Shown here: positions 613 through 31,587 of the stretch, piece by piece
How positions within the stretch are numbered: the first letter of the stretch is position 1
Layout: each line of letters opens with the position of its first letter
DNA from: Diphasiastrum complanatum
Taxonomy: Eukaryota > Streptophyta > Lycopodiopsida > Lycopodiales > Lycopodiaceae
Assembly: GCA_029204225.1 (NCBI GenBank)
Contig: CM055106.1
Span: 42,116,368-42,180,367, forward strand
Direction: 5' to 3'
Length of the DNA: 64,000 bases
Position numbers and translations under genes: made by a program
The notes under the pieces: generated by a model
The model's database searches: none
What the model saw: the letters and a program-made list of their open reading frames with translations, nothing else
What the model was told of the DNA's origin: nothing

Positions 613-960
613 TTTCCTCGGTGTGAGTCTTGTGTCTCATGTGGTCCGCTTGTGTTTCAAGTTGGATGGTGAACAAGTCAAGTTCAAAGTGTGGCAGACT
701 CTTGTTGAGAGCATGGTGTTTGGTTGATTCCTTGTGAAGTCAAGTGCTTTGACTGTGTACTTGAGTGTGAGTCGAGTACAGGTAGCAGGAAAATTGCATA
801 TGATCTATACGGACACTCCAAGACATGGCTGCACATTTTTATTCTGATACTCTTATCACATTTGAGCTTAGATTTGATTTGGTTTATTTATAAAAACTTC
901 AACTGTGATACTGTAATAAGTGTACAATTAGGTTGATATTTAAACCACACTTGAGCTTAA
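613..960. other. Unassigned interval between transposon fragments
   Basis: No domain was recognised. A 70-codon open frame at 724-936 (+) has no recognisable motif and ends in an AT-rich stretch. The interval lies between copia integrase on the left and an LTR-like sequence on the right. It may be non-coding internal sequence of the element that owns that LTR. Confidence 0.4.
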
Positions 961-1300: not shown

Positions 1301-1329
1301 TTGGCAATCAGTCAGTGATTGCATCTCTA

Positions 1330-2544: not shown

Positions 2545-3323
2545 TGTGGGGTCGAATTCTCTCGTAGTATAGCCCTTCCGCCTGTCAACAAAGGTTAGAT
2601 CACTAGATAGGTGCCTAACTATGCATAGATGCTACTTTTAGTTAATTTTCTACTTCCCACCTTAACTCTACTCACCACTATACTACTCCTCTTTAACTCT
2701 ATTCCTCTACACTAACACTCATCATAGTTTTGGTTGAAGAGAAGGAATGGAGAAGAAGAGATTGAGAAGAGAAGAGAAAGAGAGAGATGGAGAGTGAGGG
2801 TGGAGGTTAGTTCAAATGCTCCTTATGCTTGCTAATGAAAAAACATTCACTATGGCAAACAATCAAGAGCAATAGCAAGTAGTGAATAGCAAATGAGGAT
2901 GCTTCTCTTCCAAAAATTATAGAGTTTTCTCCTTCTCTTTAATCATGGAATTAGTGTACAAATGGTGCCTTTTTATAAAATGGGGAAGGCCCTTGCCCCT
3001 CAATCTTATTGGCTAATACTCACAATGATTCTATCCATTCATCTTGGATCCAACTTGATCCAAGGGTCCACAAAAAGTACATCAGGAATCATAAGATTCA
3101 TGTGAGTCCCAATTTGGACCCAACTCTAAGAAGTGATCTCTAAGTTTAAAAATGACATTGGGCCTCTAGTTTTATTTTAATTACAAGGCCCAAGTCAAGT
3201 TTATTTTATTTACAACTTCAATTGTGTGCTCATTGGGCCATGGGCTTATACATGCAAGATGCCATGCCCTCGTTTTATTGGAGGATTTTATTTATTTACA
3301 CTTTGTTGGGAATACCCCCAACA
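2545..3323 (-). repeat. 3' LTR of the gypsy element
   Basis: This 779-bp LTR begins TGTGGGGTC and ends CCCCCAACA (plus-strand reading). It is collinear with 14775-15548. It lacks about 35 bp present in the other LTR near 15085-15120 and has about 40 extra bases between GGGCC repeats near 3150-3195. Confidence 0.9.
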
Positions 3324-3510
3324 AGACCCATGGCCTAAAGCATTGCCGGTCCCTTGGCACTCTGCCGGTTTAGTAGAGCGTTCTCTTGGACCGCCTCTGG
3401 TGGATGAGATAGCCCGTAACGTCTTCCATGAAGTTGAGACGGTCCAGTTTCTTCGAGTCCTTTGGCGTGTGGAAGGACTTGTGGACTCCTGTTAGCCATT
3501 CCTGATCCAT

Positions 3511-6484
3511 TCATGCTTGGAATCGTTTCGTCCAGGGATCTCCAAGGAATGTAGCTCGGTAATATATGTGAGCGACTGGCAGCTGGTCTTCAACTTTGTC
3601 GAAAGCGAGCGCCTTATTTGGATCAAAAAATATGGAGGGAAGGAAATCATCCCATTTTATTTCAATGCCCATTAAATATTCTAAGTCCCGGGCATAAGTG
3701 GCTGTCTTGCGGACTGTGGGATCGGGACAATTGATGTAGTGACTGGTGAATGCGGAAAGAGCTCTTCTGGCGTCTACATCCGTTGTCCACCCATATTTGG
3801 ATTTGATGATTGGCCAGTTGAAATTGTTGAGTGTGATCTGGTCCAGAGGAGTGCCGCATTCCACTCATTTGGATCTTTTTGGACACGGTAGAAAATGCGC
3901 GTTCACCCGTATCTGTTGCGGACTCATCACGTAAGCCCTGATGACCGCAGGGTCTCTCTCAAATAATTGTTGTCGCCACTCCAGTTGTGGTTGGAGGGCA
4001 GGTAAGGCTTGTAGTTCTTTTCCCTTGATGGTCTAGGATGAGAATGATATCTGCTAACTGCCGCTTGATGACTCATGGGGATATTTGGATAAAAATTCAT
4101 TGATGTTCTCCTCCACGGACTTCGGTCTTCGGAAGGCCCGGCTGGTAGATATCGTTCGCGACCCTCTGGATGATGTTGCTTGGCCCTAGCTGGTGGTTGC
4201 GCCTTGGCTCTGGTCTCGCGTCTCAATGGCTGCATCTGTCTGCCCTTGGTCTTGGCCTTTGGACCCTTGATCTGGTTGAAATCCCCCTGCTTCTTGTTGG
4301 CTCTGATCTTGGTTGGTACTAGCCTGTGCAGCGTCAAAATTAGGTGGTGGTGGGATTACCACGGGGGTGGGCTGGGCCTTTGTTTCCATGTATTTTTGGC
4401 ATGCCTTGAGGGCTTGCTTGTCTTGGACGAGTCTTGTGTTGCGCTTTTCCAATACTTATTGAACTCCGCTTGGTAGTTGTTGAGGGTTTGGCTATAAATC
4501 TGCACCTAACGTCGTAGAAGATTCATCTCTGATTGGGAAAGCGGCCTTGTGTCCAGTGCAGATTGAGCTAACCCGGCAAGCTTCTCGTCTTGTAAGCCTT
4601 TGACCTCTATCCCTAGGCGCGTGTTCTCTGCTTCCAAAAGTGTAAGTTGCGCCTGGATGGGGGCAAGCCGTTGGGATGCTTCAGCTTGAAGCTCCCGCAC
4701 CTTTGTGGAGGCCTCAGTCAGCACTTTGGAGAGGCTTTGAATATATTTGTTTAGGCCCTCCTCCTTCTGCTGTAGCTTGGCAATCTCCTGGTGCCCTGCT
4801 TGTTCGTGTTGCTGAGCCAGAATCAGCTCTTGCTACAACTTGATGAGGTCTACTCGCAGTTGTGTAATACTCGTTGCCAACTGTAGTACCCTGCTTTCTA
4901 GAATAGCTTTGGCCACTACCACATCCAGGATGTATTTTCCTAGAGTTTGGTACGTCGTCGTTAGATTCGTGGGAGCAGCTGGTACACTGGCACTGGCAGG
5001 GGCTTGTGTTGTATCGGCTCTGACGACATGTGGAATTCCATCGCCATTGTCTTCGATCAGGTTTTCATTTGTCCTGATGCCATCTGGGGCGGTAGAGTCA
5101 GCCCAATCTGGTGATGCTACAAAAACTGTTTGTACAAATGCGTCATCAGGCAGTGGTTGGCTGCCCTCGGCAAACTTTGGCGAAGCGAGTGGGGTGTGAG
5201 AAACAACTATGGAAATAGAGGTGAGGATGGTCTTTCCGAACGAGAGAAATAATGGGGAACTGAAGAGTGGTGTGGAGTATGGAAGAAGGTGAGGATGGAG
5301 CAGAAAGTGTCTGGCGTGGGGGTGAAGAATTGATAACTTGCATCCATGCTAGAGTGTCGGGGGACAGTTGCGAATCAGAAGGATTGAATGTGAGGGGAGC
5401 AACGGTGGTGGCAGGAGTGATGGAGGATGTGATGGTGATGGATGGAGCTGTGGACACTGGAAGAGAAGTAGGAGTGGTATCAACAGAAGAAACGGGGATG
5501 GAGACAAAAACAGATGTGGATGGAACACGAAGAGAGGTAGCGGCAACAGAAATTGGAGTGGGGGGTTGCACAGAAGAAGAAGTGGCGGTGGTTGATGGAG
5601 TGGTTAGTGCAGTAGTGGAGACACGTCTTCGGGTAAAAGGTGGAGATATGGATGTAGAGGCAGCGCCACGCATTCGTTTGCTGGCCGTTGTGTTAATGAC
5701 TGCAGGTTGGGAGGAGGTGGATGCTTGAGATGGTGGATAAAGGTTAGTATGTGGCACAAGGGTAGACAGGAGGGATGAGCGTTGGAAACTGTGCACTTTC
5801 GCCTCGAGAAGTGTGCAAGCAAAGTTACACAACAGGGGGCCTGCTGTGATTTTCTCACGATTGTTGGGTTTGATGGAGTTTGTTAATTCTCGAATAAGGA
5901 AGCTATGCCAGTCATATGGCACAACGAAGGGGTTAGGGAATTCTAGAAAGGATTCCACTATCTGACTCAGCATCATAGACTGGATTCTGTCATTGCGAAA
6001 TGTTGAAATAACTAGAAACTTATTCAACAGATGCGCAGTCGCCTAAATGACGGGTTCCGTGATAGCTTCTATCAAGTAACCATTGTTAGTCTGGATGGAC
6101 ATTTTTGGTGTGGTTTGGGTGACGAATGGTTTGATCAGAGCCTTGGCGTGGCGATGGGAGATGGGTTGACGATCACCGGACATAATGCCAACAGTGATCA
6201 TCGAGTCGACGTTAATCCTGACTTTGTATGTGGTACCTTGGTACAAAAGTGGAAACGAGCCTTGTCCTCGTCCCAGGTGGCGTAAGTGTGAAGGGAGAGG
6301 CCCACGTTAATCTTAGAATGGAAGAGCGTCGAATAAAAATCCATTGCTTCAAGGAGGGGCCGGCTATTTGCAGCCATGGTTGGATCAGAGTGTCAGAGGG
6401 TAGAGGCCAAATCTGCGTGGCTTCGAGGATGTCACTCTGGATCACTTGTTTGGCGCCAGAGTCTTCAGAGGATGAGGAGGCCAT
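3511..6484 (-). pseudogene. Accessory ORF region downstream of gypsy integrase (broken)
   Basis: Several minus-strand frames form one apparent broken gene reading from 6484 down to 3511. It starts MASSSSEDSG (6484). A globular part follows (6246-5700, including FPNPFVVPYDWHSFLI near 5920). Next is a Ser/Thr/Pro-rich linker (5700-5300), then a heptad-like Leu/Ala/Glu stretch at 4724-4506 (EASTKVRELQAEASQRLAPI) that looks like a coiled coil. After that come a Gln/Asp/Gly-rich segment (4452-4186), a basic segment (4337-3927) and a C-terminal globular part (3864-3511, with TTDVDARRALSAFTSHYI). At least four frame changes separate the parts. No known domain was recognised. An extra ORF 3' of pol is known for Tat/Ogre/Athila elements. 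Whether this one is homologous to those cannot be judged here. Confidence 0.6.
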
Positions 6485-15553: not shown

Positions 15554-16213
15554 CATGCCTCTTGCCGAGTGCAAGGATCTTATTAATAATTTTGCATTGA
15601 TCAGATTTGAATTCTACCTTATGACCTAAATCTGTAATTCTACTTACCAATAACAATTTGTAGAGAGTTTAGGAACATATAAGACCTTTGATAGTAGTTT
15701 GAATTGATCATGCTGGATTGCAATCTTACAGTACCTTCACCTTCAATAGTGTGAGTACTATTGTCACCAAGATAAACAAATTTCTTCATGCTATAAGACG
15801 TGTAGGAGTTGAAAGTATCACGTTGATTGGTCATGTGTTGAGTTGCTCCAGAATCAAAAAACCATAAATCATCCAAAATTGTGTTTTGGTCTTTGATCAT
15901 GAATGCGCCTTTGTCCACTTCGACCTGGGGAGATGATGAAACTATGTTTGCTTGTTGATCAGGTTGTTTGGTTGTATTCTTCTCTTGGAAAAATTGGCAA
16001 TCCTTGATCTCATAGTTATTGCGCTTGCAATACCTGCAAAACAACTTCTTCTTCGATTGTGGATTTGATGATTGTACTTGACTTTGAGTTAGCTTCTGAT
16101 TCATTGCAGCCTTCTTGGAGCTTTTCTAATTATGTCGCTTAGAGCCTTTGTTGACATATAGAGCCTGAGAGGAGGAAGTAGACAAAGTGTCTTGACTTCT
16201 TCTATGCATGGAG
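15554..16213 (-). pseudogene. Ty1/copia gag C terminus and protease
   Basis: The minus-strand frame 16104-15640 has a zinc-knuckle-like CRYCKRNNYEIKDCQFF (16035-15985; the expected His is Tyr/Asn here) and the copia protease site WFFDSGATQHMT (15868-15833). A second block, FVYLGDNSTHTIEGEGTV, follows. Upstream, a gag tail with ALYVNKGSK sits near 16170. Frames break near 16130 and 15640. The reading runs to the gypsy insertion and resumes at 2544. Confidence 0.82.
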
Positions 16214-16330
16214 ATTGAATTGATCGTATAGAGTATATAATATAATCAAAGATGAGTATTTTATTTTGCTTCAAGGGATCCTGTTCATAGTACTTTGATA
16301 CATCTGATTGCTCAATTGTTTTTTTTGATG

Positions 16331-18925
16331 ACGACATTGTATCATCTACATGTGGATATCCCTATTGATTTGGCACCTTTGCAGAGAAGAGGGGGCAAAG
16401 GAATTCAATTATCTGTTGAGGATCGTTCTCGTTATAGGGCAGAAGGAAAGAAGAACTTGAATTTATGGACAAATGGAACATTATATCCACAAGATCCAAG
16501 CACTTTGACACATCCCACATTCGTAACTCATTTAGTTACTTGGATATGCAATGGGCATGTTGGATTACTAAGATATTGTGAGAGATTGCAGATATGAATG
16601 AGTTTCACTTTTTAGAAGATGAGTTAATAGGGATATTCTATTGTCAGAATAAAAATTGTCTTCTCCAAAAGAAATTAGAAAAAAATGAACAACTTAAAAC
16701 AAATAATGAATCATTATAGAAGATAACATTCAATATCAAATCAGAACTAAAGCAAATGCAATCAATCTTACAATCTATTGGAATTGAAAACTTACAATTA
16801 CTGAAGGATGTGGAATTGGCTAAAAAGAAGGCTGGCAGTAAGAGGCAAAAGCGACAAAGTTGCAAGGATATTCAAACGCTTTCAAAAGGAGGTTATCGAA
16901 ATAGAAGGATTCGTGCATTCAAGTAAGCATATTCTAATTTTTGTAAGTTGATCAATGACATTTGGATTTAATTTTAGCTATGGTGATATTCTGCTAACTA
17001 TCTGTTTTTCTGCAGATCTGCATTAGTAGCTCCTCGAAATATTAAGGACAATGCTTCAGTAGGAATGTCGTTGGGCTCAATATTGACAAGAAAATCCATT
17101 GAGCATATCATGATGAACAATAGGAGTTAAAATGTAAAGTGTAAAATAACAGAGTCTTTGATGGTGGACATTCATAGTTTAAGGTGCTTGTGATTTTGTA
17201 AGTCTTAGCAAGAAATCATATGCAACAATATTTAAACTAATTAGAGAAGCTTTTAAGCAAGTTCGAATTAGAAAAGTCCCAATCCCTAGGACATATCACT
17301 TGAAGAAAGAGAGGGATACATTAAACAAAGGTATGCATAAGATCATTGAAACTCCATTTCATATTGAGCAGGTGTATGAAACTGATGGAAGATCAATATC
17401 CTATAATTCATCAAACAACTTATTTGTTGATCTAAATTACTTGCTGAGATACATTGTCACATTCTATGATATAACCTTTGAAAAGGTGAACGACAAAATA
17501 ATCATAGTACTTAAGTTAGATGAGTTAGAAAGTGTGAAAGGGCAAAAGATGGAGAGGGTTAGTATAACTCTCATGAATGGTGCACTATCACAAACAAAGG
17601 ACCAAGAAGATTTCAGATTCAGTGTCCAATCGAAAAATGATGTATGGTGGTTGGCAGCGTTTCAGGTAACTAGCCTCATTATCACATTACATTCATTGAA
17701 TAGTATTAATTCTTTGTAAACTAAGTTTTATTAATTCTTTGGATAGGTGCTGAAGGAGAATTATGATATATTATCATGGATATTCTCAAGGACATCTTAT
17801 CCTAGGATCATCAAGGACCATATGGATGGAGGACTTCTCAATGTTCCAAGAGTTGGAGACTTCAATGTTGAATGGCACTTAGCAGGTGATTTGAAAACAT
17901 TGAAATGCATGTATTGTCTCTCACAGTGCTACATCTAAACACCCTTGTTTGTACTGCATGAAAATGACAAAAGATGTTACTAGGAGTACAAGAATTACTA
18001 GAGAATATGCAGATCCAAACTGAAAGCTTGTGCTACCTATCTCCTTGAAAAATGTGCATGTTTGCACTCTTCATGCAGAAATAGATTAATAGAAAAGATC
18101 ATTTATTTTCATATAGTTTTTGCTTGGAATAGTAAGCCAGCATCATCCGCAAAGGAAGTTATCTCTCAATTAGAAAGAAGTGTTATCAAAAGCAAGACTT
18201 CATAAGGGACATGTCAAAATTCAAAAAGATGAAAAGCTTTTAGGAGAGATTGGAAATATGCCAACTAAGCCAAGCATAGGAGGAGCAAAAGCACATCGAT
18301 TTCTATCAAATCATGCTGGTAAGGCTTCTTATATTCAACACTCAATCTGGACAGATATTATTGCTGCCACTCATGACTTCAAGAAAGACGACAAAACTAG
18401 AGTACTAAAAGTTGATGTATGGAAGAAGCTTGATGATATGATTGTTATTCTTAGTAGATAAATACTTTGATATTGATAAGAAAGTTGTACAAAGGACTTG
18501 TGTCGAGTTTGTTGATGCAGTATCAAAAGCATGGGGAGAAGATCACATCACTCATTACATGGTTGGTATAAATTCTTCAAGATTCTTTTAAATTTTTCAT
18601 ATATATTTAGATCCAAACATAAGACTGACATTATGGTTTTGACATCTGCAGCACATACTGATAGATCATACAACATTTTTGCAAACACATATAGAAGCCT
18701 GAGAGTCTGGTCATCACAAGGGATGGAGAAGTCACATTGGCAAGCACGGGCAGCATTTCATCGAAATACACAACATGGAGGAACCAATGAAAAACGAAAC
18801 TACATTTATTAATTGTTTCAATGGTTCTACCGTAGAGTTCAAATTCGACATATAGCAAAGTCCACACAATACAACAAGTTTAGAAAGGCATGCAAGTTCA
18901 TACATGAAGAGAAAATTAGATGATT
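16331..18925 (+). pseudogene. Gene A: decayed intron-bearing gene of the A-D block
   Basis: I do not recognise this gene with certainty. It starts near ATG 16331 (MTTLYHLHVDIPIDLAPLQ). A coiled-coil-like Lys/Leu/Gln segment (16600-16900) follows. A phase-matched intron is at 16923-17015 (GTAAGC...TGCAG). The next exons include the 17150-17665 frame with YETDGRSISYNSS and VLKLDELESVKGQKME. A second phase-0 intron is at 17666-17746. Then comes FNVEWHLAGDLKTLKCMY with a HPCLYC cysteine motif (17860-17960). A later block is NVHVCTLHAE (18045), and near the end there is SQGMEKSHWQARAAFHRNTQ (18714-18775). Disruptions include TAG 16717, TAA near 17125 and frame changes near 17190 and 17925. From memory, the combination of G-D-L-K, paired Cys and SQGMEKSH resembles uncharacterised repeat-encoded proteins of invertebrates and protists. 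It converges on gene B, 150 bp away. Confidence 0.5.
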
Positions 18926-19074
18926 GTTGAGTAGAAGATAACAAAGACATTCAGTCATCATTGTCATTAAATTATGACATGTTCAGAACTGCTTGCAAAT
19001 TCATGGAACAAGAGAGAGGATAAATACTCAATGTAAATGTATTGATTGTATTATAACAAAATACAAAGTGTTCA
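18926..19074. other. Intergenic gap between convergent genes A and B
   Basis: This AT-rich gap of about 150 bp has no motif seen beyond poly(A)-signal-like AT runs (TATAACAAAATACAAAG). It fits shared 3' ends of two convergent genes. Confidence 0.4.
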
Positions 19075-20547
19075 CTATTCATCATCAGCTTTTGTATCAA
19101 CTTCTATAGTTGTATTGTCATGAAGAAATTCTTTACTAGAGTATGCATCTAATAGATGTGCATTATCCTTACTTCCACTAAACTCAATATAAGTAGAGTA
19201 ATATGAATAATGAGAGCTTCTTAAAGGAACATTCCCATCAATAAAACCTAAAATGTTCAAAACATACGATCTTTTGACGAAAGTGATCATATTCGTCTTA
19301 ACAAATTTATGTCCTCCTAAATAAAATGATAAGGCTTTAACTACCATTATCAGAGTCTCCCCAACTGGGCTCAGCTTGGAATGAGCAATACAGATCTCAT
19401 TCTTTAGAAAATGCCTAAGATAGTGGCCAAGTCCGCTATCCCTCTGGAACGAGAATGCATGTTGTCTGTAACCACCTCGTCTCGCAGCAAAGTCATCAAT
19501 TATGAGAGCATCCTACAATAAAAAAAAATAAGTTAAAAAAAAATACATTCAGCAATTAAAAACAATCTAATGCAAGGAAGTTTAAATAGTTACACATTCA
19601 TCATCATCAACAGCAACCAGATCAGGATGATCAATATTATGACCACCAACCGAAGAAGAATCATATGTGAAATGCATTAATGATGGATGAGAGAAGCCCA
19701 TCTGGGATTGAAATGTCGTGAAATCTTCATCAGATGGTATGTCTCGTTTATGGTCAACAATATTTGATAAAGCCCTCGTCAAGAATTCTTCACCGTTCAT
19801 AAGTCCATTCTCATCATCATAATCAATTCCAGCAACAAGGTCATCTGTTTCAAAATCTACAAAGTTAGAAAATTCAAAAATTGTGCTAGATAATAAACAT
19901 AGCACCTCGTCCTCATCACGATAGTCAAAAAATTGACACAAATCAACTATAGTAATATAAACATTGTCATTTCTACAATACACTAGCAAATTAAAGAGAC
20001 ATTTAGATTTATCTATAGGGATTGATTTATCAGCAATAATATTTAGGCCAATGAAAGAATCCCAAAGCACATCAGTATTTACATCAAGAAAATCACTATC
20101 CTTATCAAGGGTGTCAATTAGAAAGTGACTAATATCCATAAAGGATGATTGAATTGAGGATGATGCAATATGAGAATCAGCAGCAAAAACTTCCTCATCA
20201 TCCGGGATCTGAACTAATAAGAAAAGTATGAAACCAGTCTGTTCAAAAAATTGACATTTTTTATTGCCATAAGGATACATTGAAGTGCTTTTAAACAGAT
20301 GAAACAATTTAGTGAATGGACAATATCAGTATAATGCATGTAGGAGAGTGAACCTATGGAGATAACAGACATACTAAATATATCCCTGAATCTAACATAA
20401 TGTTCATAAAATACTTCAAAATTGGGTTGTGCAGTCTTGAAAACATGTAAATATGGTCGAAATAGGCTATGGAAGTCGTCTAGGTTGTCAATAATCCCAA
20501 ATTCAGTAAGAAATGCACTTATGCCAGAATCTCGGGTAGATTTTGAG
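19075..20547 (-). pseudogene. Gene B main part: three-exon gene, start separated by an insertion
   Basis: Exons on the minus strand are exon 1 (25809-25799 joined to 20547-20375), exon 2 (20213-19594) and exon 3 (19512-19075). Introns are GTATGT...TTAG (20374-20214) and GTAACT...TTGTAG (19593-19513). Phases match at both joins, giving about 413 codons without a stop once the inserted copia element is disregarded. The start is ACCATGG at 25812-25806, a good plant context. No known domain was found. Visible features are a Ser-rich N terminus, FLTEFGIIDNLDDFHSLF, a very acidic middle (19600-20200) and a conserved-looking C-terminal part with QHAFSFQRDSGLGHYLRHFL (19460-19400). The clean frame suggests that it decayed little before the insertion. 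Confidence 0.62.
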
Positions 20548-20552
20548 GACGA
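20548..20552. repeat. Target site duplication GACGA (left)
   Basis: GACGA precedes the LTR start at 20553 and recurs at 25799-25803 after the other LTR. Confidence 0.9.
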
Positions 20553-21239
20553 TGTGAAAGTACTATACTTTAGGACCATTAATGGATCTACAAAAGATCC
20601 ACAACAATGATTGGATGCTTGCTTAACAATCTATCAAAAAACTAGACACAAAAAAGTTGACCTAGATTGGAATTTGACAAACAACAGGCATTAACAATCA
20701 AAAGCATTGATCAACATTGAAATCCGAGGCCACACGTGTGTAATACAGGCTTTAGTACGGCCTTCAAGCTGAGAAACAAGTAGAAATTGATTTGGTTTCA
20801 TTTGGATCACAAAAACTCAATGTACATAGTGAACTAGCTTGAGATTGCTAATGAGCTCCAAAAATGTTCTATCTTCTCACTATGGGATCTTGGAATACAT
20901 AGCAAATTCAACTTCCTTCTTGAATTTAGGTGGATTTCCAGCATGTAATAAGGAAGTTCACTCACTCTTCTTGTCCTAAAATGAAACCCTAGTCTAGATC
21001 CTAGAGTTATGCTTGGTAGGTAGCTAGTTGGTCAAATTTTCACCTTAAACTTAGGTGTAGGTCCTATAAAGTAGGGATGACCACCAAATAGACATGACCA
21101 ATTGTCTTGACTTGACCTAACCTACATTAAGAGTGGTTTGACACGTGGCATCTTGGCATTCCATGTGTGTAACCCAATTATACACAATATTTACAAAGTT
21201 CTACATGGCTAGATTTGCCAAAATAGGCTATTTTTCACA
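20553..21239 (-). repeat. 3' LTR of the non-autonomous copia
   Basis: This LTR runs TGTGAAAG...TTTTTCACA, 687 bp. It is collinear with 25109-25798 with scattered substitutions. It contains the palindrome CACACGTGTG near 20733, which is CACACATGTG in the other LTR. Confidence 0.92.
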
Positions 21240-21248
21240 CTCCTCCTC
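21240..21248 (-). other. Polypurine tract
   Basis: On the minus strand GAGGAGGAG directly abuts the 3' LTR start TGTGAAAAATAG. This is the expected plus-strand primer site. Confidence 0.8.
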
Positions 21249-21249
21249 A

Positions 21250-22870
21250 AATCTAGCCTTGGAAACAATAATGTATATATATACAATTCTAAGACCTAAT
21301 CTTAACATCAGAAATAAATCATATTCAGGTTTAGAAGATGACTAATGAGCCTCTAAAGATGATGACATGATCCATCACCATATCCAAGATAGAGCTTCTT
21401 TGATCTTGATCTCCTCCTAGATGAATTGAAGAGTCTTGATTCTTCCTTGCACCTTTGCACTTGATTTCTTCCATGTTGAGTGAAGATGCATGAAATTGAA
21501 ACTTCCTCTTTGATCTTGATGCTTCCGTTTGAAGGAAATCTGATGTCTCCATGTCTTGTGAAAATCACATTGATCAAGATCACAAAACATGTATTTGCTA
21601 CTATTACCAAGATCTATCATACTAAAATGACTAGTCCACAAACCATCAAAAGTAAGCATGATTTTACTAATCTTATAATTACAAGTGATCTTGAACTTCT
21701 ACATACTTGCTTATGTATTTAAGTGTCCTTCAAGGATGTTTCACTTATTCTCATAAGAAGCTTACAATTCGCCTCTCCAAAAGAAAAAACACATTTTTTA
21801 AAACATGAGCGATTAACTCACTCTTGCTCTTCCAAAATCCAAGAGCACTCATCTGATCAAACACCCAATTTACTCTTAATTGGTTCATAACAATTTTCAG
21901 ATCACTAAGACATAAAAACATGTTCTCAAATAAGTCATTACACATCTTATCTTCAACTTCCTTCTTGATGAAGCCCTCAAGTTGCCACATGTAGTTCTCA
22001 TAGCATACCTCGGTTTGCCTCATGTAGATCTCATAGCAAAATAGTTCATCAAGCATTGAAGTAAGAAAAAGTGTTGAAATTGAATGGTTGAGAATCCTCC
22101 CCTTGATTACCTTTGCCAAGATAAGTGAGCCTTGAAGGCTCAGCCCTTGCCTTTGTGGATCTTCTTGGAGCACTTGATCTTTGAGGTGGATCCTCAAGAT
22201 CTCCATCACTTTGTTGCTCCTCCTCAATCCTTGCAAGATCATTGACACCAAGGTTGTTGATATCACTTTCGTTCACACAAGATACTAGATGGATCCAAGC
22301 ATCTCTTTTATAAACATCTAGGAATGTTTCATGCATCTTATCATCACTACTTGGTACATGAGAAAAAGAGTGTACATTTGAATGAATGATTTTCTCTTTT
22401 GCCATAGCAATTTTAGCATCCAACTTAAACAAAATACCTTGTTTAACACCATTTTCTATGCAAATATCATTCTTCATGATGGAACAAACCTAATGCTTGA
22501 AGTGAACATCTAAACCATCATCCATTAGTTGTCCAACACTAAGCAAGCTCTTGGTAATTGATGGTACAAAAAGGACATTGTCTAGATCCATCCTTTTGCT
22601 AGATCCTAGACTCAATGAGATGGTACCAATACCATCTACCTTACATTATTGATCATTTTCTAAGGAAACAAATTTATTAGCACCACTGAAAGAGTGTAAT
22701 ATTGAGAATGTGTCCTTTTGGAAAATCATGTGGGAGCTAGCCCCACTATCAATCCACCACATGTCCTTTGAGTTGCTTTTGCTTGCTGGAGTGGATGTAG
22801 ATGCCATCAAAGATGAGATCTCCTCATCTCCATCCTCTTCATATGCAAGGTTCCCTTGTTTGTCCTCCTC
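21250..22870 (-). pseudogene. Protease and residual 3' coding/non-coding part of the non-autonomous copia
   Basis: From right to left, the protease site WWIDSGASSHM lies at about 22765-22730. Next comes the conserved FVPSITKSLLSVGQLMDDG (22580-22520). The frame 22477-22049 then contains SFSHVPSSDDKM and the short linker SSAPRRSTKARAEP (about 22180-22140). No integrase or RT motif occurs between protease and this linker. This shows an internal deletion that left the ends required for replication. 21250-21750 is AT-rich and non-coding. Confidence 0.75.
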
Positions 22871-22875
22871 CTCTT
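22871..22875. repeat. TSD CTCTT (left) of solo LTR
   Basis: CTCTT precedes TGTGAGAATTTGC and recurs at 23700-23704. Confidence 0.8.
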
Positions 22876-23699
22876 TGTGAGAATTTGCAAAAATCTAGCT
22901 TGGTATTTTTTATGATAGAAGTTTGTAAGTGAATCTCACATGTGTGGAGGATGTTCCCACGTGTGGAGAATTGTAAAGTAAATAAAAATGTTTGATGTAG
23001 GGGTCTCATAGAATTTCATAGTCAAGTATTTAGGTGTAGGATGTTGATAGGGTCAAATTTGGCATAGATGGCAAATTATCCATTTCCACTTGTAATGCCA
23101 CTATTGAGCCAAAATAGAGTAGGAGGCCAAACTTGTGCCAATTAGAGTGTAGACAAGTGTAATGCTTTTGTTCAATGAAGTTTAAGAGGTCCAATAGGAT
23201 TTAGAGGTGGAACCATTTGTGGTCCAATAGGAATTTGAGGTGTGCTTGAATATAGTCCAATAGAATTAAGAGGTGCATGGATCAATGGTCCAATAGGATT
23301 AAGAGGTGGCAAAGTGTGATCCAATCATAGTTGAGCATAGTGATAGCTCGTGGATCTACTAGTATCATTGTACTCCTCATTTGGATCTAATTGATTTTGA
23401 GATTGAGTGGATTTTGAGTGTCATTGAATTTCTAGCTTTCTCTCTCTACCCGAGAGCTCATGATGGTTTTTCTCTCTCTACCAGAGGAGAGCAGCTTGTT
23501 TTTACTTAGAATACTTTTGGAACACTTTTCACACGTGTGAGTGAGAGTTGGAAGTGATTGAATGCATGTAGTAGTGTGTTTTTGCCATAGAATCAAAGAT
23601 AGATCTTGAATCTCAATCTAGTCTTGATCTTGGTGCATCTACACACCTTAGGAGATCACAAGTACATGTAGTGGACAATCCACACGTGTGAATTCAACA
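22876..23699. mobile_element. Solo LTR nested in the non-autonomous copia
   Basis: This 824-bp sequence starts TGTGAGAATTTGC and ends GTGTGAATTCAACA. It is flanked by CTCTT on both sides and lies between the gag zinc knuckle and the protease, where no spacer is expected. It contains several CACGTGTG-type words and a run of near-identical phrases of the 'CAATAGGATTTAGAGGTGG' type at about 23190-23310. It has no partner LTR or internal coding, so it is best read as a product of LTR-LTR recombination. Confidence 0.8.
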
Positions 23700-24489
23700 C
23701 TCTTTTGCTCTTAGCCTTCGGATGCATAATGCCCCTTCTTTCCACAAAAGAAGCATTTTTGCTTTGACTTGTCCTTTGAGCTTGATGCATCATCCTCTTC
23801 TTTGGCCTCCTTGGGATGCTTGTTCTTTTCATTGGTCTTATTTTTGCCCTTGAATGAGAAATTGGCTTTCTCATCTCCATCCTGCAAAGACAATGAACTC
23901 ATTCTTGCCTTGGTGTGGAGCATCGTACACTCTTCAGCCACTAATACATTGTGAAGTTTTTCTATAGTTGGCAAAGTGTCTTGGATGGCAAAACTTTGGA
24001 CCAAATTTGCAGAGTCATCTCCTAGACCATTAAGGACAATTGTACAAGCTCTCCATCATGAATCTTCTCTCCAATGGAAGCCAACTCCCTATTTAGAGAC
24101 TTGATTTTGAGTACATAATCTTGTGCACTCTCCTCACTTCTCCTCATGCTTTGCAAAATCTGATTTCTAAGCATGAGTACTCTTGAAGTGTTACTAGATT
24201 CATAGATTGATTTTAAAGACTCCCAAGCCTCTTTAGCACTAGTACATGCTGATACTTCTCTCAACAAATCATTGCCCACATTCATCTTCACACAATGAAG
24301 TGCAAGCCTAGATCTCTTCTTGTATCTAGCTAACTCCTATGCACCTAGAGGTTTATCTTCATCTTCAATCAGAAACTCATAAAGGTCTTGGAGCACCATG
24401 AGTGACTCCATCCTCACTTTCCAAATAGCATAATTGGTAGAATTTAACCTCTCACTAGTTTCTAGAAGGTATGCTCCAGCAGATCCCAT
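23656..24489 (-). pseudogene. Gag of the non-autonomous copia
   Basis: The start is ATG at 24489 (MGSAGAYLLETSERLNSTNY, IWKVRMESL), typical of the N terminus of copia gag. One TAG lies near 24337. Next come ALHCVKMNVGNDLLREVSAC, EAWESLKSIYESS and LRNQILQSMRRSEESAQDYV (24290-24080). A frame change follows, then frame 24004-23711, which ends in the knuckle CFFCGKKGHYASEG, where the last Cys has become Gly. The product would coat element RNA. It is decayed but close to intact. Confidence 0.82.
23700..23704. repeat. TSD CTCTT (right) of solo LTR
   Basis: CTCTT immediately follows the terminal CAACA of the solo LTR. Confidence 0.8.
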
Positions 24490-25096
24490 CTTACTAGTAA
24501 AATTCTACACACAAGATATACATTTGGTTGAACTTGAAAATCACAAAGGTTTCTAGCTTGCAGTGTTTCACTCAAATATTGACTTCTAATCCAACAGATT
24601 GACTTGTAATCACAGTTCTATCACTCCCTGACAAAGCTGGAATGAAGATAAGATGAAGTGAAAACTACTCTCAAGCAAATCTTGCCAATCTTGGCTATTT
24701 GTGGATAATAGAATGACTCTATCTCTCTCTCTCTCTCTCTATCACTTTGATGTACTTTCAAGACCTGTTTTCAGCTTAGATTAATTAGATCTCATGACCT
24801 TAAGTCAAATCTAATCAATGGCACTCAATCTTGGTAGCTTATCCTATTTCCGCCAAAAATTACATCAAAAGCTCACAAATTGAATTTTTTTGGATTAAAT
24901 GAATACCATGCATTAAATGCAAGTTCAGAGGTGCCCACACATGTGGAAAGTACGGATTTGGACCCCTACCAAGTTTGGGATCAAATCTCCTCACCAAAAT
25001 CAAGATCCTAGCTTGCCCTCTCAATACTAGTTTTTAGCACCAAAACTTGCTAAAAATGGATCTGCATTAGATCAATGGCTTATGCTCTTGTAATTG

Positions 25097-25108
25097 GCTC
25101 TGATACCA
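25097..25108 (-). other. Primer binding site, initiator tRNA-Met type
   Basis: The minus strand reads TGGTATCAGAGC immediately after the 5' LTR. This is the standard plant copia PBS. Confidence 0.9.
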
Positions 25109-25798
25109 TGTGAAAGTATTGTACTTTAGGACCATAAATGGACCTACAAAAGATCCACAAGAGTGATTGGAGGCTGACTTAACAATCTATCAAAAAACTA
25201 GACACAAAAATGTTAATCTAGATTGGCAATTTGACAAACAACAAGTATTAACAATCAAAAGCATTGATCCACATTGAAATCCAATCCCACACATGTGTAC
25301 TACAGGCTTTAGTATGGCCTTCAATCTGAGAAACAAGTAGAAATTGATTTCGTTTCATTTGGATCACAAAAACTCAATGTACATAGTGAACTAGCTTGAG
25401 ATTGCCAATGAGCTCCAAAAATATTCTATCTTCTCACTATGGGGAGCTTGGAATACATAGCAAATTCGACTTTCTTCTTGAAGTTAGGTGGATTGCCAGC
25501 ATGTAATAAGGAAGCTAACTCACTCTTCTTGCCCTAAAATGAAACCCTAGCCTAGATCCTAGAGTTATGCTTGGTAGGTAGCTAGTTGGTCAAATTTTCA
25601 CCTTAAACGTAGGTGTAGGTCCTGTAAAGTAGGGATGACCACCAAATAGACATGATAAACTCTCTTTGACTTGACCTAACCTACATTAGGAGTGGGTTGC
25701 CACATGGCATCTTGGCCTTCCATGTGTGTAATCCAATTATACACAATATTTACAAAGTTCTACATGGCTAGATTTGCCAAAATAGGCTATTTTTCACA
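25109..25798 (-). repeat. 5' LTR of the non-autonomous copia
   Basis: This 690-bp LTR is paired with 20553-21239 and is flanked by the PBS on the inner side and the GACGA TSD on the outer side (25799-25803). Confidence 0.92.
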
Positions 25799-25809
25799 GA
25801 CGAGGCCAT
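25799..25809 (-). pseudogene. Gene B: start codon and first codons, cut off by the insertion
   Basis: The minus strand reads ATG at 25809-25807 within ACCATGG, then GCC TCG TC up to the TSD. The rest of the codon and the following frame lie at 20547 and beyond, on the other side of the 5.2-kb copia element. Removing the element and one TSD copy gives an uninterrupted reading frame. Confidence 0.75.
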
Positions 25810-26671
25810 GGTACTATGGTAGATATCGCACCTGTGCATGAGGGAGACAATACAAAAAAAAAAAAAAAATTGTAAAGAGCATGCACAAGAGGGATATGTA
25901 CGGCAGATAGAACCGGGATATCGCACTTGTGCACAGGTAAAGATCAAGAAATAACAGACAACACAAAGCGCGCACACAAGAGCGATATGCCATGAAATTC
26001 GAGAAAAAAAACAAAAAATTAATCAGGTTGTGTATCTTTTATAGGGAATTTTTTCACGCATGTGGTCAATGGTCAATGGACACATGTTGGCTTCCGATTT
26101 GTTCGCACGCTTTGGCACGTGTGATGTGACAGCTGGACACATGTGAAATGACATCAGGACACATGTCTGGTGTTCATTGGTTGGATGGACAACAAGTGTC
26201 ATTTTTCTATTCATACGTATGATCGCACAAGTGAGTGATGACACCCTGACATGTGTCGCCAGATCATTGGTTGGACAGTCGCCACGTGTCAATTTTATAC
26301 GATGAGAGTTCGCAAGTGTGACAAGACGTTCTTTTGCACATGCGGCTGCGATATATAACTGACAAACTACGAGGCATTTATTTCACTTTTTTTTTTCCTC
26401 CGCATATTGCACTTGTGCGCCACCTTCTTATTTGCTATTCTACATACTGCCTCACTCGCGCACAGGTCCGATATCCCCACATACATGTCTCCACATATCG
26501 CACTTGTGTGCCTCTATTCTATATTGACTGATCTCACTTACACTTCCCTTGCATAGGTCCAATATACCGTACAAAATTTTCGTACATATCGCTCCTCAGC
26601 AAACGCTTTGGATCCCTCCCCTTCCTATCTTGATGATCACGCACAAGTGCGATATCCCTTGGAATACCTCT
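25810..26671. promoter_or_regulatory. Divergent intergenic region with an array of GATATCGCACTTGTGC motifs
   Basis: This region separates the start of gene B (minus) from the start of gene C (plus). It holds about ten copies of GATATCGCACTTGTGC or its complement with variation. Examples are 25822-25838, 25883-25897, 25917-25933, 25969-25987, 26334-26353, 26403-26420, 26457-26475, 26494-26511, 26551-26567, 26585-26600 and 26641-26657. Its centre (26085-26295) has several ACACATGT / CACGTG words. It has no ORF of note. A shared promoter or a transposase-binding region is the simplest reading, but this is inference. Confidence 0.6.
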
Positions 26672-28340
26672 ATGGAGAGGAGAAAAAAGACGAAGAGAAA
26701 ATTCTTCTCTGTTGGTGCATCTTCAGCCCCTACCATTGTCATTACCCCTCCCATTTGAACTAGAAGGCACAAACGCATCAGGTGGTTCTCTGATATTCGT
26801 AAGTATCAGAGATCAACCAATCTGCTGATTTAGAGAGCTCCATTCTATCGTGCTGTCTGCCACATTACTAGGAATGATCTCGGTCATTTTGTCAGATTCA
26901 CTCCCTCGGCTCTTCAGCGCCTTCAGGAGGCTATTGTGGACTATATGAGCCTTTTTTTTTAAGATTCATTTCTGCTAGCTATACATGCTAAGAGAGTAAC
27001 CATTATGCCTAAGGATTTTCAACTATTGATGAGGATGTGGAAAAGATATTTCAAGTTACACTTGTCTCAGCCGGCTGCTCCTAGACCTAATCCATTAGAT
27101 AGCACAGACCTCCCTACCAAGTGGCCTAAGAAGCAGCCGGCCCCCAAGAGAGCCCCAAAAATAGTTAGGAGGGCCAATACCACAGATTCTCCTCAACCTA
27201 ATCTCGTTGGTAATGTAGATACTGCTACACTAGATAAGATTGTAAATATAGCTACATCCATTTTGGATAATCTTGTTATTCTTGTAGATACTGCTCATCC
27301 ACCTCCTCCTCCTCCTTCAAATTTTTTTACATATATAGATTTAGATGATTGTCTTAAATTTGAGAGTGACATAGCTGATGTTGTAGATAGAATGGGAGTT
27401 CCATTTTGTTTTAGGTTAGAGAAACTTGACTTCAGTATAAACTATAGAGTTATTGATTGTTTGGATATAAAAAATAGACGGGCTTCTATCAGTGATCCTT
27501 TGATAGAGTCTGGGATTACACTCTTGAAACATGACATTGCAAGAGATTCATCCAATGAATTGTTCATGCTCAGTAACTTTTTGCTTCAGGCCTTCAAGGA
27601 GAATAACAACACTTTGTCATAGTGTTTGACTAGTGGATTCACACCAGCAACAAATTACATGCTCATGTCTTATCATACCAAGTAAGATATGTTAAATGCT
27701 TATTACAGTTTAAAGCTTTATCAATGGAAATAGTTTTTAGAATTGTAGCTAATGGACTCTCTATCTTATTTTGTAGCGAGCACTAGAGTTTAAACCTGAT
27801 CTCTATTAAGAGATCTGTAGAGTGTACTGTTAAAGTATTTTGTGTCAAGATGAACTCGACTAGCAATACACATAAGGATGTAGATATGTACTTGTCATAT
27901 TTAAGTAAATATATTCCAGCAGATGTTCCCTAGTCAATTGACTGGTAGATCGTCAGTTTGGAGATACATTCTATCTTTTTTGATAGCATTTTGAAATAAA
28001 TATTCTAATGTATTTGTTTCATTCTAATTCATTCTGTTTCTTAATTGATTTTTTGTGTGCTAAATTTTTTTGCAGTCACTCCAACAAAATGATTTATTCA
28101 ACTGTGGGTGGTACACTTATATAATGCAAAGTTATTTTTTGAGTGGTTCAACCTTCAGGAGGATGTTGATATTTCAAAGGTAATTTATTCTGTTTATTCT
28201 TGGTTTTGGAATCGTGATTAGTTTTTCTATTCTGTTGATTTTTTTGGCCATTACTAATACATGAATGTTCTGTCTTGCAGTTTACACTTAACATACTGGC
28301 AAGGGCAAGGCTTCAGCCTCCTATTGTTGATGAAGGATGA
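26672..28340 (+). pseudogene. Gene C: histone H3-like fold plus Ulp1/C48-like protease core, decayed
   Basis: The frame opens at ATG 26672 with a basic start (MERRKKTKRK). A histone H3 core follows: IRKYQRSTNLLI (near 26795-26830), PFYRAV, RFTPSALQRLQEA and, after a T-run (26952-26960) that shifts the frame, AIHAKRVTIMPKD (26980-27018). The last block is almost identical to the end of canonical H3. A Pro/Lys-rich linker (27060-27180) and an acidic domain follow to 27622. After an intron (GTAAGA near 27683 to TTGTAG near 27777) come DW and FFDSI (27940-27990). After another intron, ending TGCAG at 28075, comes SLQQNDLFNCGWYTYIMQSY with Cys at 28103-28105. Gln, Asn-Cys-Gly and Phe-Asp-Ser match Ulp1 proteases, but the catalytic His position is Asp. 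Stops at 26756 and 26831 show decay. Confidence 0.68.
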
Positions 28341-28818
28341 TGTTATTATTTTAAATAAAGATTAGAAAAATATGGATAGCATAGAACAGATATAGATTGC
28401 ATATGTATAGAATTGATAGGAAAATATACATTGGTATATCAAATGCTACTCCATTTTATGAATTTGGAAGCACAAAATACATGTACTAATGCCCAACTTG
28501 GGCTTTCATTTATTGAATGAAAGAGTCTATACACAAATTTTTACTAAACTTTATTTGAAGCTATTGTTCTTCCACAATGGTAATTGTTGTGAGTAGATCT
28601 TTGCAGCACGTTATCAGCTCCTGTCTTTTTCACATCTGTGACATGACAAATATTAGTGAATGTGCAATTATAAATTATGTCATTTTCAATTATTTTGTAC
28701 TATTTTGAAATGGCAATAAACATAGAGTACTTACGAGTCTTTCGTTGATGATAAATTTGAAATATGTTGGTAGATTGGTTTGTAATAGCATGAGCTTTGT
28801 TATGAGAAAATCAAGCTT
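28341..28818. other. Gap between convergent genes C and D
   Basis: AT-rich sequence without a credible ORF. It contains possible 3' ends of both neighbours (AATAAA-like words near 28355 and 28515). No repeat or RNA gene was recognised. Confidence 0.35.
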
Positions 28819-29932
28819 TCAATGCTCTTCCACCTCAACCATAGTCAAATATTCTTCATCGTGGATAATGCTTATCTCCATTCGGTTTGAGTGACCATTT
28901 AGTTCAAAGTCTTGATCCAGTGGTAGCCATGTACCTTCAATTTTCTTATATCTCTGATAGCTAAATGTGAGACAGAGCATTTGTTTTTCGATATGATAAT
29001 GGAAGATCATTGACGATTTTTTAATCCTGCATTCTATGTCATTATTTGTTTAAATAACCCAGCCTTGATCCATGAGATCTGACAAAGTCTCAATTGATAA
29101 ATCCTTGCAAACAAATAAAGTTGGTGTCCTTCGAACACTAGCACTTGAGAAAAAATCAACAAATATATGTAATGAGATAAACTAACTTAGGTGAACAATT
29201 TTCGAGCCTGTACTTATCTTCATAGCATTTCTAACATCAATGAGTAGCTTGTATATGAAGGATTTAGAAACGATATTGTCAGGAGTAGGCCACTCATCAC
29301 TCTGAAAATTAGACAATGGAATTGCTTCGAGCTTGCCAAAACCTCCATTTGTTTGTGGCATACATAAAGATTTATAAAAATATATACCACAATATGCAAG
29401 TTCCTTTGGACTTCTTCCTCTGTATTGTAACTTTCCAACATCAGAGTGAATCACGTCCAATATTCCTGCAAGTGATTGTGCTGACTCCCATTCACTTATG
29501 CATGATGGATATAAATTTGAAAGAAAAAAAAATGTTGAAGCATTTAAATCGTAATCTGGAGAGCATCAATAAAAAAAAAACACCTATGATTGCAATAGAG
29601 TGCATACATTTTGATATACTTACAGTTACATTTCAGATGATCATGAGAGATGATATCTTGTACTTTTATTTCTGAATGCATATATACATGTTGTACTAAA
29701 ACTTCTGATATTGAGTGACCTCCCGAAGTAGTCTTAAACTCCAGAATTTTTGCTTTCCAATAAGATTTGTATGTCATTTTGGCCCTTTTCTTCTATAAAA
29801 AATTGCCCTTTGATGATGGATGCAACAACACCCACGAATTCTTCATATATTTTGTTGGCTTCCAGTTATCACCTTCATCTTTCTCATTGAAAGAATCACA
29901 GACTCAACTATAGATCTTGGTCTCCTTGCCAT
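28819..29932 (-). pseudogene. Gene D: unrecognised multi-exon gene
   Basis: I do not recognise this gene. On the minus strand a possible start is at 29932 (MARRPRSIVESVI). An exon at 29777-29610 reads MTYKSYWKAKILEFKTTSGG and ends at a canonical GTAAGT donor. The next exon (acceptor near 29470) reads GILDVIHSDVGKLQYRGRSP, YCGIYFYKSLCMPQTNGGFG and DNIVSKSFIYKLLIDV down to about 29185. A third stretch reads TPTLFVCKDLSIETLSDLM (29125-29065). The last exon is at 29010-28819 (GTWLPLDQDFELNGHSNRME) and ends in EVEEH. Stops and frame changes lie between parts, so it is probably decayed. It converges on gene C. Position and style suggest that it belongs to the same unit as genes A to C. Confidence 0.42.
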
Positions 29933-30318
29933 GCTATTTTGAAAGCTTGGGCGCCAAAAATCTCTCTGATATAATACTTAATTTCAATTTTTCGTATCAC
30001 ATTTAATCTAATGTGAATGCCACCGTAATTATAGTTATTGTGCATACTATAATTTAAGTAACTGTGCATATTATTTCTATAACTGTAACTAGTATGGTTA
30101 GCAAATTTCATTATACTAACCAGCATAGTTAAGTAAATTTAACTTGAGGCATTGACGTCGGGCAAATTAGCACGTGTCAGGCAAGAAAAGCAAACCAGAT
30201 ATCGTCCAAGCTGCCCAGACACAAATTTCAAAGTTTTCTATAATGTATTTTTATTTCTCAATTTATTTGAGCTACGTTACGTAGATTTCAAATTTGTGCA
30301 TTTTGATTGGGCAAGGTG
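29933..30318. other. Right flank of the A-D block
   Basis: AT-rich sequence with local imperfect repeats of TTATTGTGCATA / AACTGTGCATATTA (30035-30080). It ends where minus-strand copia coding begins (about 30319). No terminal inverted repeat matching the left side (16213-16330) could be found by eye. Confidence 0.35.
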
Positions 30319-30328
30319 ACGGTCGAAA

Positions 30329-31587
30329 CTAGAGAAAAAAAATAAAAGTATCTTTACAAAGGGTCTTTTTTTTATTTTGGAATTCCTGTAATGCAATCAA
30401 TTCGTCTTCTTTCTTGATCAAACAAACATCACCAACAAACTCCACCTTGATTCCCTTATCAAGTGATTGACTCACACTAAGAAGGTTCTTAGTAATGAAA
30501 GGAATGAACAAAATATCTCTCAAATTCACATTCCTATTAGTAGAGAGAGAAATAAAAATTGTGCCAATCTCTTTGATTGCACACTCACCATCATTGGCCG
30601 TGTAGACCACCTTCTTGTCACCTTCAAATGTCATCAAAGATGAGTAATACTTCTCATGATATGTCATATGTGATGTAGCTCCACTATCAATCCACCAAGG
30701 ATCAATCTCTCCATGATTAGCCAAAAAACAAGATGACATAACAAAAGCATCATTTGAAAGTTGTTCATCAACACCATCTTCATCAATAGTTAGGTTGGTT
30801 TGCTTCTCACCTTGATCTCTCTTCTTCTTGAAGAAATCACAAGCAAAATGCCCTTTGATTCCACAATAGAAGCGTTTTAACTTTGACCTATCTTTCTTTT
30901 TACCAACAAAAGTAGAAGGCTCACCTTGATCTTGACCCTTTGACCACTTGCCTTTGCCTTTGCCCTTGAATTTTCCTTTGATGAACATGGCCTCTTCACC
31001 TTCTTGAGATGTTGTTGTAGAACCACCTCTTGTTTGAAGCCTAAACTCCTCATTCACAAAAATATCTTGCAAATCCACCATACTTGGCAAAGTCTTTTGA
31101 ATAGCAAAACTTTGAACATGATTAGCATGATCATCCAACAAGCCATTAAGTACAACTTGAACAAGTTCGATCTCCTTAATGCTTTCATCAATACATGCTA
31201 ACTCATCATTGAATGCTTTAACTTCAAAACGAAAGCATGAACACTTTCATCCTTCTTTTGAATACTTGAAAAGATTTGTCTTCTTAGGGTTAGAACCCTA
31301 GATGTAGACTTGGACTCATAAAGCTTCTTCAAAGCCTCCCAAGCCTCACTTGATGAAGTACACTTACCAACTTCCTTGAGAAGTTCATTAGTCACATTCA
31401 TCTTGATAATGTGTAGAGCTTTCTTAGCTCTCTTGTCATACCTCAATTGATCTTAAAGTGCCAAAGGTCTCTCCTCCACACCTGCAACAATATCAACTCA
31501 TTCATCTCGAATAAGGACTCCATCCTCACCTTCCAAGTAGAATAGTTGATTCAAGTAAGCCTATCATTGCCTTCCAACATGAAGCCA
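30329..31587 (-). pseudogene. Copia Gag and protease (truncated)
   Basis: Gag begins near 31587 (MLEGNDRLT, then STWKVRMESLF). It has LHIIKMNVTNELLKEVGKC and EALKKLYESKSTSRVLTLRR (31410-31290), and continues after a frame change in 31141-30329. That frame holds a Lys/Gly-rich linker, a knuckle FYCGIKGHFACDFF (first Cys lost), the protease WWIDSGATSHMT (30698-30663) and ILFIPFITKNLLSVSQSLD. It stops abruptly at a poly(T)-rich junction near 30350. Confidence 0.82.

Follow-up and report, generated by a model that had tools for sequence, protein, structure and literature searches.

The 64,000-nucleotide stretch of Diphasiastrum complanatum DNA analysed (hereafter the window) contains, in decayed form, one of the many copies of a DNA transposon with several genes, here called TE1, and this transposon carries a gene in which a histone H3 domain is fused to a C48 domain, i.e. 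a SUMO- or ubiquitin-like-protease domain of the Ulp1 type. The occurrence of the two domains in one gene within a transposon, proposed earlier in a sequence-only reading of the window, was confirmed; the interpretation offered there, that a mobile element carrying its own histone-like protein could affect chromatin at its own DNA, is supported by the results below, although the action of the H3-C48 protein on chromatin is itself an inference. According to the reading that we prefer, to which we assign a probability of about 0.42, the H3 domain brings the protease to chromatin, where the removal of SUMO from silencing factors would keep the transposon expressible. Few host proteins are as conserved as histones, and the silencing of transposons works through histone marks. 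An H3 domain kept under apparent purifying selection together with a deSUMOylase-type domain would therefore be a direct counter-move against histone-mark silencing, and TE1 may be a mobile element that uses its own histone against the chromatin defences of the host. No histone-encoding transposon was described in the titles and abstract openings of the open-licence PMC papers listed by the searches, several of whose lists were capped.

The TE1 copy in the window comprises positions 16206-20552 and 25799-30393, which are separated by a nested copia-like LTR retrotransposon (20553-25798, minus strand), whose gag-like minus-strand ORFs were recognized by reading. Its LTRs (approximately 20553-21239 and 25105-25798) correspond to direct repeats aligned over approximately 20549-21239 and 25105-25798 with 88-95% identity, a 5-bp duplication (GACGA; 20548-20552 and 25799-25803) flanks the insertion, and the TE1 alignment resumes across it with a 5-base overlap. 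The left part of the copy (plus strand) is 85% identical to positions 453-4847 of E36, a TE1 copy on contig C3, and its left terminus is missing: the left terminal inverted repeat (TIR) was looked for in the window copy and not found, and a copia-like gag ORF (15640-16125) lies beside this part. The left part contains a decayed transposase gene in pieces (16256-18809, plus strand), detected by BLASTP of the window ORFs to the transposase of a second family, TE2 (see below), and a decayed gene 2 (19075-20552, minus strand) cut by the copia insertion, whose ORFs (19075-19512, 19582-20325, and 20214-20630) have similar counterparts in E36. The right part (plus strand) contains the H3-C48 gene and a decayed gene 4 (28819-29792, minus strand), which resembles gene 4 of TE2 and is represented by a longer ORF in copy L058. 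Neither gene 2 nor gene 4 matched a Pfam family above the cut-off. The match of the ORF at 29544-29792 to MOZ_SAS (histone acetyltransferase; E = 0.0023) was below the cut-off and absent in the better-kept L058, and was rejected. The sequence-only reading gave the coordinates 26672-28340; the end of the gene at 28340 was placed correctly, and the transposon is far larger.

TE1 is a TIR DNA transposon, with inverted repeats on many dispersed copies and a linked transposase, and the transposon setting first proposed for the gene is thus borne out. Alignments of the window with E36, L031, L032, and L035 end at 30393 or within 3 bases of it, and a sharp right boundary, ...CTCCTCTAATG or nearly so, is common to six copies. 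The TIR at the right end, GGAATTCCTGTAATG, was located at 30379-30393 (plus strand) as a pattern with 2 mismatches. In E36, matching ends (CATTAGAGGAGTTCTCAATATC... and its inverse) lie 8,009 bp apart, and the TIR is approximately 35 bp long. When a 27-mer of the TIR was searched with up to two mismatches, 1042 forward and 1079 reverse occurrences were obtained, against 0 and 0 for the reversed-pattern control. The ends of the element read CATTAG.., and their flanks are AC/AC in E36 and TCA/TCA in one pair of ends on contig C1; three further pairs of ends on C1 showed no target-site duplication, nor did the copy of TE2. An LTR retrotransposon, considered on account of direct repeats in L035, was rejected because this copy is rearranged or nested and the TIRs of E36 settle against that reading, and a Helitron, considered on account of the CTAA-like end, was ruled out by the conserved following G and the TIRs. 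A seeming insertion hotspot at 65-66.7 Mb of C1, found among the first 100 TIR places, was also rejected: the five sites fetched there have the same 300-base flank (91-97% identical in alignments), so that the region is a segmental array and not a case of targeting, and the flank of the sixth C1 site fetched, at 97.6 Mb, differs. The region itself (G000:C1, approximately 64.97-66.68 Mb; L075-L079), with its dense TE1 right ends and shared flank, is a case of megabase-scale segmental amplification.

The gene order in E36 is transposase (plus), gene 2 (minus), and H3-C48 gene (plus), and a fourth gene (minus) is present in the window copy and in copy F58. Among the 150 transposase and 150 H3 loci listed, 12 pairs lie within 12 kb of each other (approximately 0.3 expected by chance, in any orientation), and 11 of them are co-oriented with the H3 gene downstream. 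The spacing is 3.93-3.99 kb in eight of these 11 pairs, two of which, on C84 and C465, have exactly the spacing of another pair, so that their contigs are possibly duplicates. When 10 loci that were in the transposase list and outside the H3 list were chosen, the TE1 H3-C48 gene was found downstream, whole or partial, at seven: the H3 fold and C48 exons at L082, L083, and L086; the H3 fold and the tail that follows it at L058; the fold and the start of the tail at L087; the fold alone at L084; and the part from residue 96 on at L057. No TE1 sequence was found within the stretches fetched at L081 and L085. At L088 (C15:3058157-3061157), a TE2-type H3 gene belonging to a TE2 element lies downstream of the TE1-type transposase, so that at this place one family is nested in, or lies next to, the other.

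A RAG1/Transib-like fold is predicted for the transposase family from one of its members, at about 13% identity to RAG1/Transib. The transposases gave no Pfam match above the cut-off, and none is present on the 120 relatives listed; the list used for the fold comparison contains no CACTA or MULE chains and excludes neither class. The family differs from RAG1, RAG-like, and Transib transposases in this low identity, in having no Pfam family, and in the ends read, which show no 5-bp target-site duplication; a RAG2-like gene was not noticed. With regard to strict CACTA (CMC) elements, which have CACTA ends, a 3-bp duplication, and a TNP2-type transposase, the ends observed are CATTAG.. and no Pfam transposase match exceeded the cut-off; with regard to KIU/VANC MULEs, which have a MULE transposase and a VANC gene, the transposase, gene 2, and gene 4 all gave no Pfam match above the cut-off. 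As a family from a plant, for which no Pfam entry was found and a RAG1/Transib-like fold is predicted, it widens the known range of that clan.

In the window, the H3-C48 gene consists of four exons on the plus strand. Exon 1 (26672-27681), whose donor context is conserved among the copies, encodes, in order, an H3-like N-terminus, the H3 fold (26780-27046; Pfam Histone; residues 37-125 of E36), a basic linker, and the N-terminal part of C48; it has in-frame stops at 26756, 26831, 26960, and 27620, and the reading frame from 26672 stays in register to 27622. Exon 2 (27777-27999) encodes a C48 segment in which the His block reads GAG CAC TAG (27778-27786), and it contains the FFDSI motif at 27976-27990. 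Exon 3 (28076-28179) contains the Cys block, LQQND..NCGW, with the Cys codon at 28103-28105, and exon 4 (28281-28340) encodes the C-terminal end in the frame FTLNILARARLQPPIVDEG-stop, which resembles exon 4 of E36 and terminates at the stop codon 28338-28340. The introns that had seemed plausible from the window are supported by splice-site contexts that are similar in the majority of the 23 copies in the alignment, the second donor of the window being AT, not GT. The H3 and C48 exons are predicted to be spliced into one mRNA.

The H3 frame of the window, with X at three internal stops, matched Pfam Histone (PF00125) with an E-value of 5.8e-20 (72.2 bits; cut-off, 26.4) and H3 chains in PDB at 6.8e-19, and the Histone match of E36 was 2.1e-24. 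The H3 core had thus been assigned to 26672 with the right strand and place, and the PDB alignment also shows loop 1 to be one residue longer than in canonical H3, as had been noted. The E36 ORF starts with MDRRKQTRR, similar to MARTKQTAR of H3, and continues after the H3 fold with a basic proline-rich linker and then the apparent start of C48. The transposon H3 domain is approximately half identical to canonical H3 and 54% identical over 85 residues to the H3 of P0006, another H3-C48 protein (see below). Six positions were inspected that we take to be H3-H3' and DNA-contact positions: H113, D123, L126, and R129 are each kept in 16 of 16 copies, and R116 (gap in one copy) and R83 of loop 1 (K in one copy) in 15. 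These interface residues are thus kept in 15-16 of the 16 copies; incorporation of the domain into nucleosomes with H4 is a prediction. At the N-terminus, R2 and K4 are present in all 16 copies and T6 and R8 in 14 each, position 9 is K in four, including that of the window, and S10 is found in none (F in 15 and a gap in one). The suggested affinity to CenH3-type variants was not supported: the domain scored slightly better in alignments to canonical H3 than in those to two CenH3 sequences from plants, trees did not group the transposon H3 with these two, and a CenH3 origin, for which the motif LLIP.APF was attractive, obtained no support from either. The TE1 domain resembles canonical H3 and CenH3 in its whole H3 fold, H113/R116/D123, R83, and MARTKQTAR-like N-terminus, and differs from them in its approximately 50% identity, its longer loop 1, the loss of K9 and S10 in most copies, its fusion to C48, and its location on a transposon. 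An AlphaFold model of the H3 ORF (four sequences) had a pLDDT of 31 and was not used. TE1 H3 constitutes a natural test of how much change the H3 fold tolerates, and new histone variants of the host could arise from it.

C48 enzymes remove SUMO. The spliced E36 exons matched Pfam Peptidase_C48 (PF02902) with an E-value of 1.3e-7 (32.2 bits; curated cut-off, 20.7), or with 27.4 bits when exon 4 was left out, and all four spliced copies matched it at E ≤ 1. The C48/Ulp1 identity first assigned to the window thus stands, although the window's own exons gave no C48 match in Pfam, being too decayed. The match in spliced E36 starts near the end of the exon 1 tail, and the C48 domain appears to begin within the tail of the H3 ORF, the second half of which would be its N-terminal part. 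Concerning the catalytic blocks, LQQND/NCGW had been read correctly as the Cys block (exon 3 of E36 is SPQQNDSFSCGWYT), whereas FFDSI is unlikely to be the block with the catalytic Asp; the alignment places the His block at the start of exon 2 (DHWSLNLISI in E36), with DHW or EHW in most copies. The His of exon 2 is kept in 21 of 22 copies and the Cys of exon 3 in 16 of 18, and QQ precedes the Cys in most. The residue directly before the Cys is D in Ulp1-type proteases and N or S in the TE1 copies, and at the possible third catalytic position the copies read MN[SL] where Ulp1 has Asp-Ser. Because of the N or S before the Cys and the uncertain third catalytic residue, the protease may have changed or lost its activity. 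The C48 profile matched no PDB chain even at E ≤ 10, and the tail together with the C48 part matched none of 5.8 billion proteins at E ≤ 10.

The genome (1.74 Gb in 5,176 contigs) was searched for further copies using a 219-residue ORF that covers the end of the H3 fold and the tail, so that the presence of the tail follows from the choice of query. In total, 152 matches were obtained from the best 150 of 7,080 first-look candidates scored in this genome. Apart from the window itself, the matches listed are 67-85% identical to the window and are distributed over 23 of the contigs C1-C24 (C21 has none) and small contigs. Of 34 loci taken, 11 were dropped as 98.9-100% identical to another, and the remaining 23 distinct copies were aligned. 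The whole H3 fold region is present upstream in 19 copies (allowing for stops, frameshifts, and small deletions), while three start inside the fold and one (L017) has only its end. C48 exon 2 is present downstream in 22 copies (partly in two), always in the same order, and a recognizable exon 3 Cys block in 18; the combination of H3 and Ulp1 parts claimed for the window accordingly recurs in other genomic copies. Exon 1 is undamaged in four copies (E36, L034, E35, and L003) and damaged in the other 19.

Selection was estimated from 16 copies with a readable exon 1 by the Nei-Gojobori method with codon bootstrap, stop codons being left out and copy pairs not being independent. The dN/dS ratios are well below 1 in both domains: 0.18 (0.12-0.28) in the H3 fold, the lowest among the parts of exon 1, and 0.36 (0.25-0.55) in the N-terminal part of C48, whose bootstrap range slightly overlaps that of the H3 fold. 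The linker and the N-terminal tail gave 0.45 (0.33-0.60) and 0.55 (0.33-0.97), respectively, and a pairwise version gave 0.16, 0.37, 0.45, 0.44, and 0.43 for the H3 fold, the C48 N-terminal part, the linker, the N-terminal tail, and exon 2, respectively. The low ratio of the H3 fold is partly due to its high dS (0.53 vs 0.23-0.34 elsewhere in exon 1), as its dN (0.096) is not below that of the C48 N-terminal part (0.082). Since most copies are decaying, these ratios should overstate the dN/dS of the active lineage. The codon comparison suggests that selection has kept both the H3 and C48 parts. Among the TE1 copies, dS in the H3 fold exceeds that in the rest of exon 1 by a factor of 1.5 to 2.3, for which gene conversion, recombination between lineages, and composition are candidate causes.

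When the genome was searched with a fern canonical H3 (matches being from the best candidates only), 13 near-canonical copies (95-97% identity), approximately 10 partial copies (79-97%), and more than 100 dispersed loci at about 44-55% identity were listed. The 13 near-canonical host copies are at loci separate from the transposon H3. Five divergent H3 loci were fetched (L059-L063), and outside the H3 region their alignment with the DNA of E36 was limited to one 53-base match. These loci encode long proteins (rich in proline in L059-L061) that carry the H3 fold C-terminally, the frame of L059 extending approximately 30 residues past the fold; L062 and L063 form a further subgroup. Loci of this second group (TE2/TE3) are L059-L063 and the assembly L064+L060+L065 (C10:2466804-2480503). 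The TE2 element B60 is 8,957 bp long with 38-bp inverted repeats, its transposase is 39-44% identical to the TE1 transposases, its fourth gene is homologous to that of F58 (E = 1e-39), and its H3 gene, which matches Pfam Histone at 3.1e-28, lies in the opposite orientation. No C48 was detected in B60, either in the seven ORF proteins given to Pfam or by reading downstream of H3. The transposon H3s thus occur in at least two architectures, the TE1 fusion and the C-terminal H3 of TE2.

In trees, long branches separate the H3s of TE1 and TE2/TE3 from H3 and from the two plant CenH3 sequences; their union is weakly supported (76/87) and may be due to long-branch attraction, and omitting either group does not move the other to H3 or CenH3. 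An H3 fold followed by a C48 match (4e-15) was also found in P0006, a 391-aa protein from a 4.8-kb contig. P0006 shares with TE1 the combination of the two domains in one protein and differs in an H3 that is, by eye, nearer to canonical H3; in BLASTP against TE1 exon 1 (exons 2-4 lying outside the comparison), the H3 part alone aligns. P0006 appears to be a separate H3-C48 fusion, which suggests that the pairing is useful. A viral origin was considered and rejected, as neither P0006 nor the transposase had a relative in viral contigs. Related long-tailed H3-like fern proteins that have diverged from canonical H3 (P0046 and P0049, Adiantum nelumboides) could be transposon-borne, and five other proteins from public data (P0024, P0030, P0042, P0043, and P0025) combine an H3 fold with long unrelated-looking regions, including a reverse transcriptase domain in P0025.

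In the preferred reading, the spliced H3-C48 mRNA would yield a protein whose H3 domain forms a pair with H4 of the host and becomes part of nucleosomes, binds to them, or engages the pathway of their assembly. The C48 domain would thereby be brought to chromatin, and, if active as a protease on SUMO, it would strip SUMO off silencing factors, so that the transposon stays expressible. Because no C48 was seen beside TE2 H3, transposon H3s in general cannot have the role of tethering a protease. A wider proposal, possible at somewhat less than even odds, is that a transposon lineage of this plant with a RAG1/Transib-type fold encodes its own H3 variants, in at least two architectures, and builds or edits chromatin on transposon DNA as a counter-defence to histone-based silencing; that transposon H3 gene copies outnumber the H3 genes of the host, as this proposal has it, is a comparably tentative claim. 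Alternatively, H3 itself may be the active part, a decoy that retains the first eight H3-like residues with K4, enters nucleosomes over the element, is mostly unmethylatable at position 9, and blocks H3K9-based silencing, with C48 as an accessory. The retained R2, K4, T6, and R8 with K9 and S10 mostly lost, the lowest dN/dS in the H3 fold, and the TE2 H3 without an adjacent C48 favour such a decoy, but K remains at position 9 in four copies, including that of the window, the N-terminal tail is weakly constrained overall (0.55, ranging to 0.97), the N-terminus of TE2 H3 is long and unrelated, a protein of almost 500 residues would make a large nucleosome subunit, and the dN/dS of C48 is likewise well below 1; we regard a decoy as unlikely.

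It is unlikely that the protein works with the transposase, with H3 as an adaptor, in steering integration, opening chromatin, or assembling the ends. Transposase linkage in two families with homologous transposases is what such a factor would show, whereas the listed copies are spread over 23 of the contigs C1-C24 with no obvious restriction, the dense TIR cluster is a segmental array and not the product of repeated insertion, and the opposite orientation of the H3 gene in TE2 indicates that it is not an exon of the transposase. That the gene is a passenger, i.e. captured host sequence amplified with the element and functionless for it, is improbable: plant transposons do capture gene pieces, according to a review (PMC13317346), and exon 1 is damaged in most copies, but the dN/dS ratios of the H3 fold and C48 N-terminal part disfavour this explanation, as do the conserved splice contexts and the occurrence of H3 in two diverged element families. 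A host histone retrocopy that came to lie by chance beside an unrelated Ulp1 gene, the objection raised in the sequence-only reading itself, can practically be dismissed, because both parts recur in order elsewhere (in 19 and 22 of 23 copies) and because an H3 only about half identical to canonical H3, with the host copies at separate loci, is not a recent retrocopy.

Several known systems are comparable in part with TE1. KIU genes of Arabidopsis are Ulp1-carrying VANC relatives of VANDAL/MULE elements, Ulp1-carrying MULEs are also present in melon, rice, and grapevine, and Ulp1-carrying KIU/VANDAL elements induce hypomethylation of related elements, as stated in the same review (PMC13317346). 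These elements resemble TE1 in having C48/Ulp1 on a plant DNA transposon, with KIU tied to anti-silencing (PMC13317346), and differ in being MULEs, whereas the TE1 transposase has a RAG1/Transib-like predicted fold and its C48 is fused to H3; the word 'histone' is absent from the main text of the review. In fungi, several lineages of DNA transposons, members of the CACTA-Mirage-Chapaev-Transib clan among them, encode a TET/JBP dioxygenase, which is read as a means of escape from silencing by Kojima 2025 (PMC12730594). They too are DNA transposons with a DNA-modification gene as cargo (PMC12730594), and they differ from TE1 in that the cargo is a fungal dioxygenase and not a plant histone H3.

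Two further features of the window lie outside TE1. An ORF at 51449-52171 (plus strand) has a DNA polymerase A 3'-5' exonuclease domain (E = 2.4e-5) and perhaps belongs to a host organellar DNA polymerase gene, and copia-like ORFs of 791 and 558 aa at 55503-59685 (plus strand) represent, by reading, a comparatively intact LTR retrotransposon.
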